From contig JARGOF010000013.1 in assembly GCA_029212415.1 (NCBI GenBank), forward strand, positions 62,001 to 126,000: DNA of 64,000 nt. The letters run 5' to 3'. This stretch comes from Rhizobiaceae bacterium. Lineage in GTDB: Bacteria; Pseudomonadota; Alphaproteobacteria; Rhizobiales; Rhizobiaceae. Below are positions 29,641-64,000 of this stretch, piece after piece. The position numbers and the translations under genes were made by a program. The notes below the pieces were generated by a model that had not been told where the DNA came from, did no database searches, and saw nothing but the letters and a program-made list of their open reading frames with translations. Position 1 is the stretch's first letter, and every line of letters begins with the position of its first letter.

Positions 29641-30020
29641 CTAATTCCGAACATTGGTACCGGCAGCGTGCAGGGTCAGCCCCACAGATTCCAGCAATGT
29701 CGCCGACGGATTGATTGCCGAAATCTGCTTGCAGGCATCAAGGCCCCGGAAATTGGTGCAGAAGCACAGGACCGTGTCGCAGCCCTAATCCAGACAGGAA
29801 CGCACCAGATCCGCGATCCGCTCGGGCGACACGTCCGCCATGTCGCGGCTTCGATCCAGTTCGAGGCAGTGATTCACCTTTGTGGCCACCCCTTCGCCTG
29901 CGAAATTTTGCACAATCGCCTCATGCACATCTGTTCGAAATGGCTTTATCAGGCCTAAGCGGACAGCGTTTGCCTTGCGCAGGGCTTCAAGCGCCAGCAG
30001 CGTGGTGCAAGTTCCGCCCG
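29641..30020 (-). pseudogene. Remnant of Asp/Glu racemase-maleate isomerase family gene
   Basis: Minus strand reads CTTLLALEALRKANAVRLGLI...SPERIADLVRSCLD*GCDTVLCFCTNFRGLDACKQISAINPSATLLESVGLTLHAAGTNVRN*; in-frame TAG and missing N-terminus. Confidence 0.75.
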
Positions 30021-30021
30021 C

Positions 30022-30255
30022 TCTGTGGCCCGTGTTCTGGGTCCTTACCGACGCCATATCACCTACCAGCCCGGTCGCATGGAAAGTTCACTGAGCGAAC
30101 ATGAGGCCTTTGTCAAAGCCATCGTGGCGGGCAATGGCAATGCCGCCGCCGACCAGATGCGTACACACGTGAACGCCCTTGCAAACAGGCTGTCGGATTT
30201 CCTCTATTTTCTCAACCGCACCGGCCGCAGCCAGATCATCGCCTCAGGGCAGTGA
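30022..30255 (+). pseudogene. C-terminal (FCD domain) fragment of a GntR-family regulator, no DNA-binding domain
   Basis: VLGPYRRHITYQPGRMESSLSEHEAFVKAIVAGNGNAAADQMRTHVNALANRLSDFL. Confidence 0.7.
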
Positions 30256-30397
30256 GGCCGGTCAGAAGGCCGATTTGAAGGAAGCAAAGCGACACTCCCC
30301 CTGGAGCAGCTCTGGTATCTGTCGGTGAACGGTTACGCCCGCCTTTGCATCGTGTTCAAAATTGGTCATCATGGGATTTCGCAGGGAGGAGTTCACC

Positions 30398-30784
30398 ATG
30401 GGGATCAAGGCTTATCTGCTTTTCTTGTTCATTGTGCCGGGGGGTAGTGTCGCAAGCCTGGCACAGGATGCCGCGCCGCTGGTTGCAGCGGGTGCGAAGA
30501 TCGCGGCTGTTCACTGCGCGCGCTGCCATGTTGTTGACGAGGTCAATGTTTTTGGCGGCATTTCTTCCACGCCCTCCTTTCCGCTTCTGGTCAAGGCGCT
30601 TGTCGATTGGGAAGACCGGTTTCAGAGTTTTCACACCCGCCCGCCCCACCCGGCTGTGATCCGCTTCGAGGGTGAAGTGTCTGCGCCCGATAAACCTGTG
30701 TCCATTGTCCCGGTCGAGTTGAACTATTCCGACATTGAAGCCATTGTGGCCTACGCCCGTTCGCTCAAGAAAACAGAACAATAA
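30398..30784 (+). CDS. c-type cytochrome, small
   Basis: Signal peptide plus CARCH haem motif. Confidence 0.8.
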   Translation: MGIKAYLLFLFIVPGGSVASLAQDAAPLVAAGAKIAAVHCARCHVVDEVNVFGGISSTPSFPLLVKALVDWEDRFQSFHTRPPHPAVIRFEGEVSAPDKPVSIVPVELNYSDIEAIVAYARSLKKTEQ

Positions 30785-48375: not shown

Positions 48376-49560
48376 CTATTCAAAGACAATGCTCGGCGCG
48401 CCAGCGCCAACAGAGGCGCTTTCGATATCCACACGGTTGATCACCGCTGCCGCAATTTCCTTGTATATTGCGGCATGGGGACCATCCGGCATGGAAATGG
48501 TGACGGGTGTTCCGCCATCCGAATGGCTGCGAATATCCATATGCAGCGGAATCTCTCCGAGAAACGGCACGCCCATGCGGCCGGCTTCATCACGGGCGCC
48601 GCCATGACCGAATATATCGGATCGTTCACCGCATTTGGGACAGATAAAGGTCGACATGTTTTCTATGATGCCGAGAATCGGCACGTCCACCTTGCGGAAC
48701 ATGTTCAAACCTTTGCGCGCATCAATCAGGGCGATATCCTGCGGCGTGGAGACGATGACCGCCCCGGCCAGAGGCACCTGCTGCGCCATGGTCAATTGCG
48801 CATCACCGGTGCCCGGCGGCATATCGACAATCAGTAGATCCAGTTCGCCCCAGGCGACCTCGCGCAGCATCTGGGTCAGCGCCGAAATGACCATCGGGCC
48901 ACGCCAGATCATCGGTGTTTCCTCATCCACCAGAAAGCCCATGGACATGACCTTGAGACCATAGCTCTCCAGCGGCGACAGAACGCGGCCATTGGCCGTT
49001 GGCCGATCCGATATGCCAAGCAAACGCGGCATGGAGGGTCCATAGATATCGGCATCGAGAATGCCGACTTTCTTGCCAAGGCCTTGCAGCGCCAGCGCCA
49101 GGTTCACCGATGTCGTTGATTTTCCCACACCACCTTTGCCCGAAGCGACGGCTACAATGGACCTGATGCCGGGCACGCCGGCCTTCTGATTGGGCTGTTC
49201 AGCTTGCGCTCGGGCGGCCTGTGCCTGCATGGGTGGTGGCACAGATGCCGCCTGGGCAGCGCTCGGCGCCGGTCGAATGGGGGCAGACTGGATGGACGGG
49301 GATCCCGCCGTCCGCTCGGCCGTCAGGACCGCTGTCACCTTGCTGACGCCGTCAATCATCATGACAGCCTTTTCAGCAGCGGCCCGCAAGGGTTCCAGTT
49401 CCTGCGCACGCTCGGCCGGTACGTTGACCGAAAAAATGACCCTGTCTTCGCGAACCAGAATGCCATTGACCAGGCCAAGCGAGACAATGTCGCCTTTCAG
49501 GTCAGGCCCCTTGACCCGCGACAGACGCGCGATGACCATTTCTTCGGTGATAATTGGCAT
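48376..49560 (-). CDS. Mrp/NBP35 family Fe-S carrier ATPase
   Basis: VASGKGGVGKSTTSVNLALALQ; NMSTFICPKCGERSDIFGHGGA; start trimmed. Confidence 0.93.
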   Translation of the reverse strand: MPIITEEMVIARLSRVKGPDLKGDIVSLGLVNGILVREDRVIFSVNVPAERAQELEPLRAAAEKAVMMIDGVSKVTAVLTAERTAGSPSIQSAPIRPAPSAAQAASVPPPMQAQAARAQAEQPNQKAGVPGIRSIVAVASGKGGVGKSTTSVNLALALQGLGKKVGILDADIYGPSMPRLLGISDRPTANGRVLSPLESYGLKVMSMGFLVDEETPMIWRGPMVISALTQMLREVAWGELDLLIVDMPPGTGDAQLTMAQQVPLAGAVIVSTPQDIALIDARKGLNMFRKVDVPILGIIENMSTFICPKCGERSDIFGHGGARDEAGRMGVPFLGEIPLHMDIRSHSDGGTPVTISMPDGPHAAIYKEIAAAVINRVDIESASVGAGAPSIVFE

Positions 49561-49823
49561 GCATTCTCCCTGGTCTGGCGCCCCGAACAGAACCACAGAA
49601 CCGCACCACAAAGCTTGGCAACAGACAATTTTCAGGCTGGCTCAGCCACTCTGATCGAGACCTGGAATGATTCTAATTGACTTTGGACGCACTGGAAATG
49701 CCCCGCTGCCAATTTGTTGTCAACCGCGACCCAATGTCCGCCGTCATTAAGGGTGCGGTTGCCTCCGTGCCATGCCAAGACTGTTTGAACAGGACCGGCA
49801 AGATTGGCAAGACCAGGGATAAA

Positions 49824-57905: not shown

Positions 57906-58310
57906 TTACTTGGACGCGTGTACTGTGCATTTGCCGCCATAGGCATGTGTCCACTTTTTGGTTCCTGACTGACACCCCCGCACAGCCAATGCCTCGGCTT
58001 CCGCGGTCGACCGTCTGTTGAGCGCAACACTGCAAATGACCCCATTGCTGCCATTCAATGCCCGCAGGGGCGTGGAGGCGTAAGCGGAATGTCCCTTGGC
58101 TGCAATATATCGGTCCACTGCTTTGCCACAGGCGTGAAGTCCGAAGGGCAAGCGACGCCTCACCTTGCCCTTCTTTCCTGCCAATGACGTGGAGCTTGCC
58201 TGTTTTTTCTTGGCGCTCGCGGCATGGGCGATGCCATCGGCCTGTTGCGCAGTGTAGGACATGGCAAAAGCCAGGCCGCACAAGATAAAAAGTCTGAAAA
58301 TTATTCTCAA
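57906..58310 (-). CDS. Small secreted DUF4189-like Cys-containing protein, copy 1
   Basis: Signal-like N-terminus from TTG start behind AGGGGA; 134 aa, paralogous to 58627..59031. Confidence 0.65.
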   Translation of the reverse strand: MRIIFRLFILCGLAFAMSYTAQQADGIAHAASAKKKQASSTSLAGKKGKVRRRLPFGLHACGKAVDRYIAAKGHSAYASTPLRALNGSNGVICSVALNRRSTAEAEALAVRGCQSGTKKWTHAYGGKCTVHASK

Positions 58311-58626
58311 GATATTCCCCTTCCAATGCTTGAAAAGCAGGATAAAGACACAGTCTCCTGCTTGCAATCCCATCAATCTCGCTACTGGAAGCTGCAGAAA
58401 AAAAGCGATTTCAAAGAATAGCGACCGAGGTGCGCGCGCTTATGCCAGAGCCTGTCGAGAGCATTGAACGGTATCTTTGACTGGAAAGACAATGATAAAC
58501 GGCAGGAATGGCGGGACATATCCCGCCATCCAGTTTGTATTGGTGATTTTCGGCTGAAATTGTTTCTTCGGTACCCAGGCTTGTCGCCTGGTTTAGCCGG
58601 AAAGCTTACAGCAACTGGGCCTCAGA

Positions 58627-59031
58627 CTATTTCGAGGCGTAGATTGAGCATTTGCCGCCGAAGGCGTTCTTCCATTTTCTGGTCCCATTCTCACAGGCCC
58701 TCAAAGCCAGTGCTTCGGCTTCCTTTATTGATCGCCTGTTGAGGGCCGAACCGCAAATATAGCTCCAGCTGTTGTTCAAGGCATACATGGGTGTAGACGC
58801 ATAGGCGGAATGTCCAGACGCCTTAATATAGTCCTCAACTGCTTTCCCGCATTCCCTGTGCCCCCGCGGCAAACGACGCCGCACGTTGCCCTTTTTTCCT
58901 GCCAGTGATGTGCTGCTCGCCTGCTTCTTCTTGGCGCTCGCGGCATAGGCAAGCCCATCGGCCTGCTGTGCTGTATAGGACATTGCACCCACCAGGCCGC
59001 AAATGACAAAAAGTTTGAAAATTGTTTTCAA
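58627..59031 (-). CDS. Small secreted DUF4189-like Cys-containing protein, copy 2
   Basis: MKTIFKLFVICGLVGAMSYTAQQADGLAYAASAKKKQASSTSLAGKKGNVRRRLP; same length as copy 1; TTG start. Confidence 0.68.
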   Translation of the reverse strand: MKTIFKLFVICGLVGAMSYTAQQADGLAYAASAKKKQASSTSLAGKKGNVRRRLPRGHRECGKAVEDYIKASGHSAYASTPMYALNNSWSYICGSALNRRSIKEAEALALRACENGTRKWKNAFGGKCSIYASK

Positions 59032-59352: not shown

Positions 59353-59541
59353 TTACGCCGTGACGCTGCCTGCGCCCTTGGGACCTGCGATCAGCCAGAC
59401 AATGAAGCCGACGACCGGGAAAATCAGAATGCCCAGGGTCCACAGAAGCTTCGCACCGGTGCTGGCGCCGCTCTGAAAGGTTTTGATGATCGCATAGATA
59501 TCGGCGATGAGCACCAACAGTCCGATTATACCATATTCCAT
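59353..59541 (-). CDS. PLDc_N-type small membrane protein
   Basis: 62 aa; LLVLIADIYAIIKTFQSGASTGAKLLWTLGILIFPVVGFIVWLIAGPKG. Confidence 0.8.
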   Translation of the reverse strand: MEYGIIGLLVLIADIYAIIKTFQSGASTGAKLLWTLGILIFPVVGFIVWLIAGPKGAGSVTA

Positions 59542-59570: not shown

Positions 59571-59595
59571 AACGATTGTGCGTCGATTTGGTTCC
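59571..59595 (-). promoter_or_regulatory. EcfG-type promoter for the PLDc_N gene
   Basis: Minus strand GGAAC-N16-CGTT. Confidence 0.75.
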
Positions 59596-59672
59596 CTGGA
59601 ATTCGCAATTTTCTGACAAATAGCCAATAAATCGAGACCGCTCACCCGCCTGCAAAACGGATCAATCTTCCA

Positions 59673-59825
59673 TCAGTTCCAGTATGAGCTTTGATGACGC
59701 ACAGACTGAAAGCCATCGTGACCTTCGTCGTTTTGTTCGCCATGCATGGTGATGAGTGCGGCGCTCATTGTCGCCAGGAACATTCCGGCAATAAGAACAG
59801 CCAGGAGGGTCAGCAGAGTAATCAT
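59673..59825 (-). CDS. 50-aa small membrane protein (not in the ORF track)
   Basis: Manual translation MITLLTLLAVLIAGMFLATMSAALITMHGEQNDEGHDGFQSVRHQSSYWN*; overlaps the stop of the upstream PRC-like gene. Confidence 0.5.
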   Translation of the reverse strand: MITLLTLLAVLIAGMFLATMSAALITMHGEQNDEGHDGFQSVRHQSSYWN

Positions 59826-60217
59826 GATTGTCTCCTTTTATAATTCGGTTTCAGATCTCTATCGATTTCGGGCGTAAACGAATCCCGCGGATCGGAAGGC
59901 AAGCCTGTCAGCGACGCGTTGATCACCACCTGGCTGTCCTTCAGTTGAACAGTGGCAAGTGCAAAATTTGGAAAGGCCCCGGCATCATCGCCGGCAAATT
60001 CCAAACTCTTGATGCGAAGGCATCGCACATCACCATTGTCGCTCATGCGAGCGCCGGTCACAGTGCCGAGCGGTTCACCGCTGGCGGTGACGACGCTCAG
60101 ACCGAGCCAGCTATCCTCCGGCGGATCGCCGGCTGTTTCCACTTCATCAGAAAACGCAGTTTCTGTGTTGTCCGATGCTGAAAACCAGCCGAGAGCCACA
60201 CCAAGAACGGTCGACAT
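59822..60217 (-). CDS. PRC-barrel-like small protein
   Basis: WLGLSVVTASGEPLGTVTGARMSDNGDVRCLRI; N-terminal hydrophobic segment; start trimmed to MSTVLG. Confidence 0.6.
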   Translation of the reverse strand: MSTVLGVALGWFSASDNTETAFSDEVETAGDPPEDSWLGLSVVTASGEPLGTVTGARMSDNGDVRCLRIKSLEFAGDDAGAFPNFALATVQLKDSQVVINASLTGLPSDPRDSFTPEIDRDLKPNYKRRQS

Positions 60218-60286
60218 GATGATGAAATTACGCTCCACACAGCCACTTCCGTTTCCAATGCTATTGCTCTTTGTCTCTGGTTTGTT

Positions 60287-60311
60287 AACGCGCCGCGGCC
60301 AATAAGGTTCC
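60287..60311 (-). promoter_or_regulatory. EcfG-type promoter for PRC-like/50-aa gene pair
   Basis: Minus strand GGAAC-N16-CGTT. Confidence 0.75.
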
Positions 60312-60579
60312 ATAGGCGAAGAACCGATGGTTTCCCCTGAGCCTCCGCCGCGCTGCGCGGTCCATTCTCAACAGGCCTGTGACGCGGCATTCGCGCCGCG
60401 GGCGTTCGCAACCCCTGAGACTGACAAAATCCTGTTCCAAATCAGGTTGCGCCATCGCTGGCCCATGCCCCTCAGCCAGACAAAGTGGCGTCAGCGAAGC
60501 CGCAAGCAAAACCGACACAGCAAAAGGCCCCGATGTCTTCACACCGGGGCCTGCATATCTTCCGTGTAGTCGTGACAGG

Positions 60580-61098
60580 TCAGTCCTGCGACGAACGCAA
60601 TTCGATCTGGGTAACAGCCAGCGCAAAATTCAGACCGGTCTGTGTTGATACGCTGACCGGCTGCAGGGCAATGGTCTCACTCGATCCGCCAACCAGCACA
60701 TTGGCGCCAAGGCCAGCACCGACAGTGGCTTCCGCACTGACACCGCTATAGTCACCGGCGAGTGCACCTGGCTCATCCAAATCGGATGTCGGAGCCAAGA
60801 CAGCCCAGCTGATGACGCCTTGTCCTGTCCTGCCGATATCCAGTCCAAATTTCGAAATAACACCAAAATAGGTTTCAACGGGTCGGCCGCCGTCAGCCGA
60901 GGTGAATTCGCAGGACAGGTCCTTCGTTGAACCGAAGATGAATCCGTCTCCACCCTTCACCGCGCAGTTGAGTACACCAACTTCAACGCGGTTCGTTGTC
61001 TCAGCCACAGCAGCCGTTGGAACGCTCAGGGTCAGGGGCGCAAGCGCCAGGGCGGCAAGTGCCAGAGGAGCAAGTTTCATGTGCTTTGTCATCGTCAT
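60580..61098 (-). CDS. DUF992 domain-containing secreted protein
   Basis: Signal peptide; VEVGVLNCAVKGGDGFIFGSTKDLSCEF ... VLVGGSSETIALQPVSVSTQTGLNFALAVTQIEL. Confidence 0.88.
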   Translation of the reverse strand: MTMTKHMKLAPLALAALALAPLTLSVPTAAVAETTNRVEVGVLNCAVKGGDGFIFGSTKDLSCEFTSADGGRPVETYFGVISKFGLDIGRTGQGVISWAVLAPTSDLDEPGALAGDYSGVSAEATVGAGLGANVLVGGSSETIALQPVSVSTQTGLNFALAVTQIELRSSQD

Positions 61099-61249
61099 GT
61101 TCGGTTCCTTTTCTTTTCATTTTATGCATCGCACTGCCAATCATCTGACATGCAATGCTACAGGAATCTCAGGTCGCAGGATGGCATTTGATGCCCACCC
61201 AGACCTTGGCGAAACAGTAACGTCACCCCGTTCCGCCGTCCGTTAAACC

Positions 61250-61274
61250 AACGACCGAGCAGCGTAATGGTTCC
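61250..61274 (-). promoter_or_regulatory. EcfG-type promoter upstream of the DUF992 gene
   Basis: Minus strand GGAAC-N16-CGTT, about 150 bp from the start codon. Confidence 0.65.
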
Positions 61275-61408
61275 ATTGCCAATCCACTTTCTTTCGAAAA
61301 CCCTCAGGTCCTTCGAGAATCCATGAGCGCAACGTTTCGGCTGGCGATCCATTGATAATGCAAAACGGCTGGTCACAATTTGCGGCGCATCAACCCTCGA
61401 GGAGAAGT

Positions 61409-62431
61409 TCAGGCGCCGTGAAGCACAGGAAATACGATCTCGTATTTCAATCCACCATCGTCCGGAATATAGACGGCATGACCATTGAGAGATGCCGGAA
61501 CAATTTTTTCCAGCAGCATGCGTTCAAAATCCGGCAAAGGTGTGCGCTGCGCCGGCGGCGTGTCGGCAGGTGATTGCGCTATGTTCTCTTCCTGCCAGAC
61601 AAGCGTTGCCAGATCGTTTTGTCCGGTGCGTTTGCGCGTACATTTGACCAATATGGATTGTTTGCCCTTGGCCAGCAGCCTGTGTGATGCGGCCTGAACA
61701 ATCAGCTCATGCAAGGCAAGCCCCAGATAGAGGGACGCATTGGGCGACAGGCGTATATTTTCACCTTCAAATGCAATCGCTTTCATGCCGTCAGGAAAAT
61801 ATTTTTCCGCCTGTTGGCTGACATGGCTGCGAAGATGCGCACCTTTCCAGTCCGAATCGGTCACCAGATCCTGCGCATGCGCGAGGGAATGCAGACGGCC
61901 ACGAAATCGCTTTACATAGGCATCCAGCGTGTCGCTGTGTCTGGCTGTCTGAGTGGCCACGCTTTGTATGATGGAAAGAAGATTTTTTGACCTGTGACTG
62001 ACTTCTCGCAGCAAAGACAGGGTAATGCGCTCCGCCGTCCTCTTGGCAGACAGGTCGCGGATGACAGTCAACAGATAGGGTGATCCACTGCTTCCGTAGA
62101 TCAGCTGGACATCAAACTCGAATACGCTTTCCTGATCCGGCTTCAACTCAAGACGTTCTGTTTTGCCGGTCAACAGGACGCGCTCCTTCAAAGCCGCCAG
62201 AGGATGCGCGATTTCATCTCCAAAGATCGTCAAATCCTCGGGATCGCCTTCCTGTTCAACCGACCAGCGGTCGAAAAGATTGGTGATCAACAAATAGCGT
62301 TTCGCAGCGCTTTGAACGGTCATGCACAGACCTGACCTGGCCAGTGCTGCAACAAGGTAACTCTGGCGCTCTTTGTCGTCCTGATCTGCTCTTTGCCAAG
62401 TTACCCATTTTTCCACGACGATTACCCGCAC
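61409..62431 (-). CDS. HWE/HisKA_2 (HRXXN-type) histidine kinase-like protein with atypical catalytic domain
   Basis: PAS-like region then LREVSHRSKNLLSIIQSVATQTARHS; N-box position LALHELIVQAASHRLL. Confidence 0.78.
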   Translation of the reverse strand: MRVIVVEKWVTWQRADQDDKERQSYLVAALARSGLCMTVQSAAKRYLLITNLFDRWSVEQEGDPEDLTIFGDEIAHPLAALKERVLLTGKTERLELKPDQESVFEFDVQLIYGSSGSPYLLTVIRDLSAKRTAERITLSLLREVSHRSKNLLSIIQSVATQTARHSDTLDAYVKRFRGRLHSLAHAQDLVTDSDWKGAHLRSHVSQQAEKYFPDGMKAIAFEGENIRLSPNASLYLGLALHELIVQAASHRLLAKGKQSILVKCTRKRTGQNDLATLVWQEENIAQSPADTPPAQRTPLPDFERMLLEKIVPASLNGHAVYIPDDGGLKYEIVFPVLHGA

Positions 62432-62520
62432 TTGTTACGAAATTGCACCGAAGCAAACCGTGCTTCGAGAGGATCAGTTTCACGCCCGTAAGTCATTCAA
62501 CACTCATCAGGCAACACTCA

Positions 62521-62691
62521 TCAGGTATGAGGACGCCTCACCATGTCCATGAAAATCGAGATCCCCAGAGCCATGATGAAGATGAAAAACAGAATCTGGG
62601 CAATGCCTGATGATTCGCCGGCTATCCCGGCGAACCCAGCCACACCGGTGACCAGCGCAATCAGGAAAAACACAGCGGCGCAATACATCAT
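62521..62691 (-). CDS. DUF1328 small membrane protein (not in the ORF track)
   Basis: Manual translation MMYCAAVFFLIALVTGVAGFAGIAGESSGIAQILFFIFIMALGISIFMDMVRRPHT*. Confidence 0.85.
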   Translation of the reverse strand: MMYCAAVFFLIALVTGVAGFAGIAGESSGIAQILFFIFIMALGISIFMDMVRRPHT

Positions 62692-62723
62692 GACAGGCCT
62701 CCAGGTTGCGTCAACAGTTGGTC

Positions 62724-62748
62724 AACGCATGCCAGGCCATATGGTTCC
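62724..62748 (-). promoter_or_regulatory. EcfG-type promoter for the DUF1328 gene
   Basis: Minus strand GGAAC-N16-CGTT. Confidence 0.78.
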
Positions 62749-62767
62749 AAATTCATTTCATTGCCCA

Positions 62768-63562
62768 TCAGGCGGCCGTTGTTGCCTTTTCATCAAAGAA
62801 CAATGCCTGACTGATCAGGGCTTTGAGCATGGATGGGCTGAAAGGTTTCGTCACGACAAAGGCAGGTTCCGGCCGATCACCTGTCAGCAGCCGCTCCGGG
62901 AAGGCCGTGATGAAAATCACGGGAATCGTCTCATTGCCGAGAATCTCGTTGACGGCGTCAATGCCTGAACTGCCGTCGGCCAACTGAATATCAGCCAGTA
63001 TCATTTTCGGCCGGGTTTTGTTGAAAAGATCCACAGCTTCCGTATGGGTGCGTGCAATGCCGGTGACAGAGTGTCCGAGATCCATGACAATCTGTTCGAT
63101 ATCCACGGCAATCAGTGGCTCATCCTCGATGATCATGATGTCTGTGGCGATCTGACGTGAGATCTCCTCGGATGCCTCATCCAGAAGCGTTTCCACACGG
63201 CCTTCTTCGACGCTGAGAATCTCGGCTGTTTCTTCCTTTGAGAAAGTTTCAACTGCAACAAGCAGAAAAGCCTGACGTGGCAATGCAGGTATTGCTGCCA
63301 GATTGGCTGCGGCCCGCTGCTCCCAGACAAATGCGGACGGGCTCGGCTCAATTCTTATGTCGAGGGAACGAAATGCCGTGCAAAACAGTTTGTAGAGGGC
63401 GACACGATCGCTCGACGCATCGGGAAAAATGGAAATATCTGCAATCAGAGCTTCCAATGTTGCCGCCACATAGGCATCGCCGGATGTCTGTGAGCCGGTG
63501 AAGGCACGTGCGTACCGACGCAAAAGCGGCAGATACGGGGCGATCTTGGTGGACAATGACAT
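62768..63562 (-). CDS. phyR: PhyR general stress response regulator
   Basis: 264 aa; N-terminal ECF sigma-like domain plus C-terminal receiver (MIIEDEPLIAVDIEQIVMDLGHSVTGIARTHTEAV). Confidence 0.95.
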   Translation of the reverse strand: MSLSTKIAPYLPLLRRYARAFTGSQTSGDAYVAATLEALIADISIFPDASSDRVALYKLFCTAFRSLDIRIEPSPSAFVWEQRAAANLAAIPALPRQAFLLVAVETFSKEETAEILSVEEGRVETLLDEASEEISRQIATDIMIIEDEPLIAVDIEQIVMDLGHSVTGIARTHTEAVDLFNKTRPKMILADIQLADGSSGIDAVNEILGNETIPVIFITAFPERLLTGDRPEPAFVVTKPFSPSMLKALISQALFFDEKATTAA

Positions 63563-63609
63563 AGAGATCTCTCCTGAAAATCAAAATTTTTTGTGCTACT
63601 AACGGTTCC

Positions 63610-63634
63610 AACGCGCGTTGAAAAAAAAAGTTCC
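63610..63634 (-). promoter_or_regulatory. EcfG-type promoter for phyR
   Basis: Minus strand GGAAC-N16-CGTT. Confidence 0.78.
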
Positions 63635-63643
63635 GAAAAAAAT

Positions 63644-63668
63644 GGAACTTATTTCGTTTTGCCGCGTT
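63644..63668 (+). promoter_or_regulatory. EcfG-type promoter for nepR-ecfG
   Basis: GGAAC-N16-CGTT. Confidence 0.8.
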
Positions 63669-63703: not shown

Positions 63704-63898
63704 ATGAACAGTAAAAAGCCAGCAGGAGGGTCGAACATCCCTTATTCTGACGACATGGATCCCAACAACGCAATATCGCGGCAACTGCGCGCTATTTATC
63801 AGGAAATCGAGTCGGAAGCGATTCCAGACCGTTTCCTGGACCTGCTCGAGAAACTTGATGCGGCTGAAGCGTCGCAGAAACGTGGGGCCGATAAGTGA
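63704..63898 (+). CDS. nepR: NepR anti-sigma factor
   Basis: ISRQLRAIYQEIESEAIPDRFLDLLEKLDAAE; between phyR and the sigma factor. Confidence 0.92.
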   Translation: MNSKKPAGGSNIPYSDDMDPNNAISRQLRAIYQEIESEAIPDRFLDLLEKLDAAEASQKRGADK

Positions 63899-64000
63899 CC
63901 ACAACTCCAGAACCTGAATTCAGTTTCAAGCGCGAGATGCTTGCGGCCCTCCCAAGCCTGCGTGCTTTCGCCATGTCACTGGTGAGAAACTCACATAACG
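63895..64000 (+). CDS. ecfG: EcfG-type sigma factor, 5' end only (truncated by window)
   Basis: GTG start overlapping nepR stop; VTTTPEPEFSFKREMLAALPSLRAFAMSLVRNSHN. Confidence 0.82.
   Translation, partial: MTTTPEPEFSFKREMLAALPSLRAFAMSLVRNSHN

Follow-up and report, generated by a model that had tools for sequence, protein, structure and literature searches.

Our results make it very likely that the sequence at positions 59571-63668 combines the core of the general stress response, phyR divergent from nepR-ecfG, with a run of transcription units that would depend on the sigma factor EcfG. By "the window" we mean the whole stretch of 64 kb that was analysed, positions 62001-126000 of contig 11 of the genome. 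A first-pass annotation had read the locus as an EcfG regulon. This reading is supported by the conservation of the specified promoter bases in a sister genome, by the sole full PhyR-NepR-EcfG set found in the genome, by the recurrence of the sites before DUF992, DUF1328 and small PLDc_N genes across the order, and by the promoter pattern itself. The pattern, GGAAC-N16-CGTT, had been attributed to EcfG sigma factors and is indeed identical to the experimentally derived promoter consensus of R. etli EcfG1 (PMC3892343). The units are predicted from sequence to depend on EcfG, and their effectors may act in the envelope. The system is well known and the locus is one of its dense examples; it yields well-supported predictions for several uncharacterised families.

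The six sites first proposed, listed in Table 1 with the coordinates and strands they had been assigned, are all exact matches. The count of six within 4.1 kb, however, overlooked a seventh exact match (59656-59680, minus strand), which shares sequence with the final codons of the 50-aa gene. We reject this match as a promoter and judge it a product of chance, because its -10 word CGTT has decayed in the sister genome. Only 0.046 sites are expected per 4.1 kb, against six observed (P(≥6) ~1e-11, or ~2e-8 once multiplied by the number of 4.1-kb windows). For the whole 64-kb window, shuffles gave an expectation of 0.92 sites with the N16 and N17 spacings pooled, and 0 of 100 shuffles reached 7. 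The first-pass annotation had suggested a genome scan to see whether the density is exceptional, and it is: no denser cluster of the pattern exists in the 5.84-Mb genome. The runner-up in the genome's site list is on contig 25, with three sites in 1 kb. These exact sites, at 29643-30631, are grouped with a DUF892 gene, an ORF of 47 aa and another, unnamed ORF.

Table 1. Promoter sites and genes of the locus. Positions above 64000 continue the numbering of the window along the contig; "sister" is the closest relative having the locus.
Feature	Position	Strand	Basis
PLDc_N 62-aa membrane protein, predicted EcfG target	59353..59541	-	Pfam PLDc_N 42.4 bits; site 30 nt upstream
Predicted EcfG-type promoter of PLDc_N	59571..59595	-	Exact match; 9 specified bases kept in sister, 3 spacer changes
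Seventh exact match, judged chance	59656..59680	-	CGTT lost in sister
50-aa membrane-type protein	59673..59825	-	Substitutions vs sister 1, 1, 8 by codon position
PRC-like protein	59822..60238	-	Pfam PRC 20.2 bits, just below cut-off
Predicted EcfG-type promoter of PRC-like + 50-aa unit	60287..60311	-	Exact match; specified bases kept in sister, 2 spacer changes
DUF992 protein, N-terminal signal-like stretch, predicted EcfG target	60580..61098	-	Pfam DUF992 167 bits
Predicted EcfG-type promoter of DUF992	61250..61274	-	Exact match; specified bases kept in sister, 3 spacer changes
HWE-family histidine protein, degenerate catalytic domain	61409..62431	-	Pfam HWE_HK 82.9 bits
DUF1328 56-aa membrane protein	62521..62691	-	Pfam DUF1328 38 bits
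Predicted EcfG-type promoter of DUF1328, probably HWE gene too	62724..62748	-	Exact match; specified bases kept in sister
phyR, anti-anti-sigma response regulator	62768..63562	-	NCBIfam PhyR family 375 bits, cut-off 240
Predicted EcfG-type promoter of phyR	63610..63634	-	Exact match
Predicted EcfG-type promoter of nepR-ecfG	63644..63668	+	Exact match; specified bases kept in sister
nepR, anti-sigma factor	63704..63898	+	Pfam NepR 56.5 bits; sole NepR in genome
ecfG, first 106 nt in window	63895..64000	+	Sigma70_r2 and Sigma70_r4_2 over cut-off
GGAAC-N16-GGTT variant before diacylglycerol-kinase-like gene (named by eye)	64521		Conserved
Exact site, gene assignment uncertain	72208-72232		Specified bases kept in sister
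GGAAC-N16-GGTT variant before DUF883-like gene (named by eye)	75308		Conserved
Exact site before 295-aa PRC-barrel gene	77684-77708		Specified bases kept in sister
Exact site at Dps-type ferritin gene	78476-78500		Specified bases kept in sister

There is no genome-wide excess of the pattern. With N16 spacing we find 73 sites in 5.84 Mb compared to 142 for the reversed control, so a lone match means little. The N17 spacing occurs 44 times in the genome and nowhere on the contig segment that carries the phyR locus. The 73 sites were placed relative to genes with an in-house caller based on codon usage, to which some very small genes are invisible; other promoter-placed sites precede catalase, universal-stress and SDR genes (these three named by eye) and DUF892, Dps and PRC-barrel genes.

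Conservation of the sites was judged in the sister genome, the closest relative having the locus (MAG contig JARGOX010000004, here L046; its PhyR is 99% identical). Across the six sites 0/54 specified bases have changed compared to 15/96 spacer bases (P 0.0008). When the three exact sites past the window are included, the footprint, which rests mainly on this one close relative, stands at 0/81 specified against 27/144 spacer changes (P 2e-6). The intergenic region around the DUF992 promoter is identical to the sister at just 212/312 positions.

The identities given to phyR, nepR and ecfG are borne out by Pfam and NCBIfam family models. PhyR has both a sigma-like and a receiver domain (Pfam PhyR_sigma2, PhyR_sigma-like and Response_reg). 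NepR belongs to its Pfam family without reaching the NCBIfam SigT-NepR equivalog cut-off, and its gene adjoins the sigma gene, overlapping the ecfG start. The sigma gene, identified from the continuation of the same contig, runs on to 64458. It is divergent from phyR and encodes an ECF sigma factor that has regions 2 and 4. A GGAAC-N16/17-CGTT promoter stands before both phyR and nepR-ecfG. NepR, full PhyR and close EcfG were each found once in the genome, all at this cluster; the next match to EcfG is 29% identical, and no other was found.

Under our reading, stress-sensing kinases would phosphorylate PhyR, probably via a single-domain response regulator and the phyR-linked HWE protein. Phosphorylated PhyR would draw NepR off EcfG, and RNA polymerase with EcfG would transcribe from the GGAAC-N16-CGTT promoters. 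Those of phyR and nepR-ecfG would provide positive feedback, and that of DUF1328-HWE would feed back on signal input. The remaining ones would drive the envelope-type genes: DUF992, PRC-like plus 50-aa, and PLDc_N.

To our knowledge, most EcfG targets have no known function. The domain calls of the first-pass annotation largely stand: PLDc_N, DUF992, DUF1328, PhyR and NepR all exceed their Pfam cut-offs, but PRC falls just under (20.2 vs 21.2 bits). The longest PRC-like ORF (59822-60313) has the promoter 60287-60311 inside it. Hence, if the promoter is real, the start should be GTG 60238 or ATG 60217. The start codon of the 50-aa ORF overlaps the PRC-like stop. Pfam offers no family for this ORF, but its substitutions relative to the sister, which fall 1, 1 and 8 by codon position, show that it is a real gene. 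Two other DUF992 genes are found in the genome, a copy on contig 63 with a site 50 nt upstream and one on contig 36 without. A single-sequence AlphaFold2 model of DUF992 was unusable (pLDDT 33). The DUF992 profile matched only EipA (5UC0, Brucella), weakly (E 0.02, about 50 residues). This is a lead, not evidence; a distant link to that periplasmic envelope-integrity protein is possible from the sequence. In the open-access literature searched, DUF992 is named in a single paper, as a Brucella outer-membrane protein, and no link of DUF1328 to PhyR and the general stress response was found there.

The sites recur across Rhizobiales. In 61 genomes spread over the order, counting N16 or N17 as a strict site, 13/49 DUF992 genes have a site at most 450 nt upstream of the domain, compared to 0/49 on the opposite strand; the 13 include the window's own gene, and the other 12 come from 11 families. 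For DUF1328 a site lies within 300 nt upstream in 12/30 genes vs 2/30 on the opposite strand. Small PLDc_N genes have one within 300 nt in 4/7 cases (own included; 3/6 elsewhere) vs 0/14 for full-length cardiolipin-synthase-type genes. We set aside a background taken from neighbouring genes at the order-wide loci (29/151) in favour of the opposite-strand and cardiolipin-synthase-type controls, since the tested promoters themselves lie within the neighbours' upstream stretches. Membership of the regulon is not universal, as most sampled DUF992 and DUF1328 genes of the order are without a strict site. A different genus of the family has DUF1328 and DUF992 side by side behind one site.

phyR itself has a strict site upstream in 75/80 Rhizobiales loci. 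Around phyR, in 69 full-length loci, there are on average 3.5 sites per 7 kb and at most 7. In Rhizobiales, EcfG sites commonly gather at phyR, and the locus described here is near the top of the range. The usual companions of phyR are DUF883-like, DUF1328, CsbD-like and PRC-barrel-like genes (assigned by eye except DUF1328).

The site at 62724-62748 had been assigned to DUF1328. It is exact, but the assignment omitted the HWE gene behind DUF1328, which is probably served as well. A site directly after phyR is found in 47/80 Rhizobiales phyR loci; what follows it is a DUF1328 gene in some of them and immediately an HWE gene in 21. In the sister genome an internal deletion has reduced DUF1328 to a remnant of a few codons (L046 10815-10990, equivalent to 62440-62748 of the window), and the promoter and the HWE gene are intact. 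Because the sister lost DUF1328 yet kept the promoter, and because the site stands directly before HWE in those 21 loci, the HWE gene is probably the constant target of the post-phyR promoter.

As a kinase, the HWE protein looks catalytically dead. We aligned 64 phyR-linked HWE proteins with one outside comparator, and every row has the phospho-His. Four rows have Gln in place of the N-box Asn; of the rows shown, these belong to the window, L046, L047 and L048. The same four have FER at the G-box, where the other rows shown have Gly (FGS or similar). The protein combines an HWE dimerisation domain, the phospho-His and linkage to phyR, which we took to mark a phosphotransferase, with a degenerate ATP-binding domain of the PhyT type; Pfam finds no separate ATPase-domain match in it. 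Since the N-box Asn and G-box Gly are lost, our best guess, by analogy, is that it is a PhyT/PhyK-like phosphotransferase to PhyR and not a kinase. C. crescentus PhyK (PMC5964349) and S. melonis PhyT (PMC5898713) are phosphotransferases between a single-domain regulator and PhyR. They are HWE-type proteins of the PhyR pathway with intact phospho-His, too, and their ATPase domain is degenerate (PhyT) or dispensable (PhyK). They have a putative periplasmic sensor domain. The protein described here is 340 aa long. On contig 18 an HWE kinase and a single-domain regulator form a candidate donor pair, which adjoins a catalase-like gene with its own EcfG-type site. The motif loss looks separate from PhyT/PhyK, since the N-box Asn is intact in most of the phyR-linked relatives in Rhizobiales. 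The broken motifs suggest an origin of phosphotransferase-type relays in this branch as well.

One could also argue that the HWE protein linked to phyR works as an ordinary sensor kinase, which autophosphorylates with ATP and phosphorylates PhyR directly. It keeps the dimerisation domain and the phospho-His, 60/64 of its phyR-linked relatives retain the N-box Asn, and an unusual ATP site is possible. We consider this unlikely given the Gln and FER replacements in all four of these proteins and the fact that PhyK and PhyT, acting at the same step, are phosphotransferases. Still less likely is that only the sites of phyR, nepR-ecfG and DUF1328-HWE are functional, and that those of PLDc_N, PRC-like and DUF992 arose by chance or belong to a different ECF sigma factor whose motif is similar. 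Sites at phyR and just after it do recur widely, whereas the DUF992 / PRC-like / 50-aa / PLDc_N set is found at phyR in just 1/80 loci, namely the sister. Chance does produce strict matches, as the seventh site shows. ECF26 sigma factors can recognise overlapping motifs, and S. meliloti RpoE6 shares targets with RpoE2 (PMC6180224). However, the three doubted sites show no change at any specified base in the sister, amid spacer changes, DUF992 and small PLDc_N relatives elsewhere in the order carry the site, and the genome offers just the one distant match to EcfG mentioned above.

A further alternative concerns not the regulation of the genes but why they are together. The cluster could be physical linkage only, with small stress genes gathered near phyR by shared inheritance and no functional reason for their proximity. 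On this our judgement is evenly balanced. Many EcfG-type sites in the genome lie far from phyR, so proximity is not needed for control, and the companions of phyR vary between lineages. On the other hand, EcfG sites peak sharply around phyR in the 69 Rhizobiales loci and the reversed pattern does not, hence the tendency to cluster recurs.

The regulon reading places the locus next to several characterised systems. It shares with the R. etli EcfG1 - NepR - PhyR (TcrX) - TcrY locus (PMC3892343) the divergent phyR / nepR-ecfG arrangement and an HWE-type gene near phyR. It differs in that the HWE catalytic motifs are degenerate and that DUF992, PRC-like, 50-aa and PLDc_N genes adjoin the core. No ReC64-type RNA was found here by Rfam, which gave no RNA at the locus at E 1. 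With S. meliloti RpoE2 (PMC6180224) and S. melonis EcfG (PMC6599016) it has in common an ECF15-type sigma factor, the GGAAC -35 element and many small uncharacterised targets; PRC-barrel genes are among the targets of both. Here the surroundings of phyR hold a large share of the promoter-placed sites, the genome-wide spread having been looked at in this genome alone.

It is conceivable, if doubtful, that the stress response of this lineage forms a compact module, in which a core switch, a catalytically dead HWE relay and lineage-specific envelope effectors are held physically together under one kind of promoter. Across the family, 171/200 genomes pass the PhyR family cut-off. In seven of nine congeneric genomes (G144, G210-G214 and G216; 98-100% complete) we find no NepR and only receiver-domain matches to PhyR, and their best sigma factors are 36-41% identical to EcfG. 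The exceptions are the window's genome (G000) and G215. Since the module is present in two congeners and the seven others sampled are without detectable PhyR, NepR or close EcfG, it may be acquired or lost as a whole.

The promoter wiring gives poorly known envelope genes beside the switch a testable role. EcfG-type sites recur ahead of DUF992, DUF1328 and small PLDc_N genes in several bacterial families of the order, not in this genome alone, which predicts that many members of these three gene families take part in the general stress response, a prediction that can be tested in genetically tractable Rhizobiales.

Two observations concern other parts of the window. Tandem genes at 57906-58376 and 58627-59031 (minus strand) encode similar secreted-type proteins with no Pfam match in either. 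An Mrp/ApbC-like gene (48376-49611, minus strand; named by eye) is 66% identical to a copy on contig 49, and the congener G215 has both. We rejected Mrp as a marker of genus kinship because there are two paralogues, one of them the window copy.

The effectors do cluster with phyR-nepR-ecfG, as claimed, but the extent of 4.1 kb was too short. The cluster continues for about 14.5 kb past the window, where further conserved promoters would extend the series (Table 1) and the companions are DUF883-like, PRC-barrel and Dps genes. For the site at 72208-72232 the next start in its orientation is that of a 103-aa gene, 190 nt away. At 68523-71634 a heme-oxygenase-like gene overlaps the start of a gene for an 897-aa phytochrome-like protein with a receiver domain (both named by eye; the receiver domain matches PhyR). 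The phytochrome-like protein is a possible light input near the stress locus.
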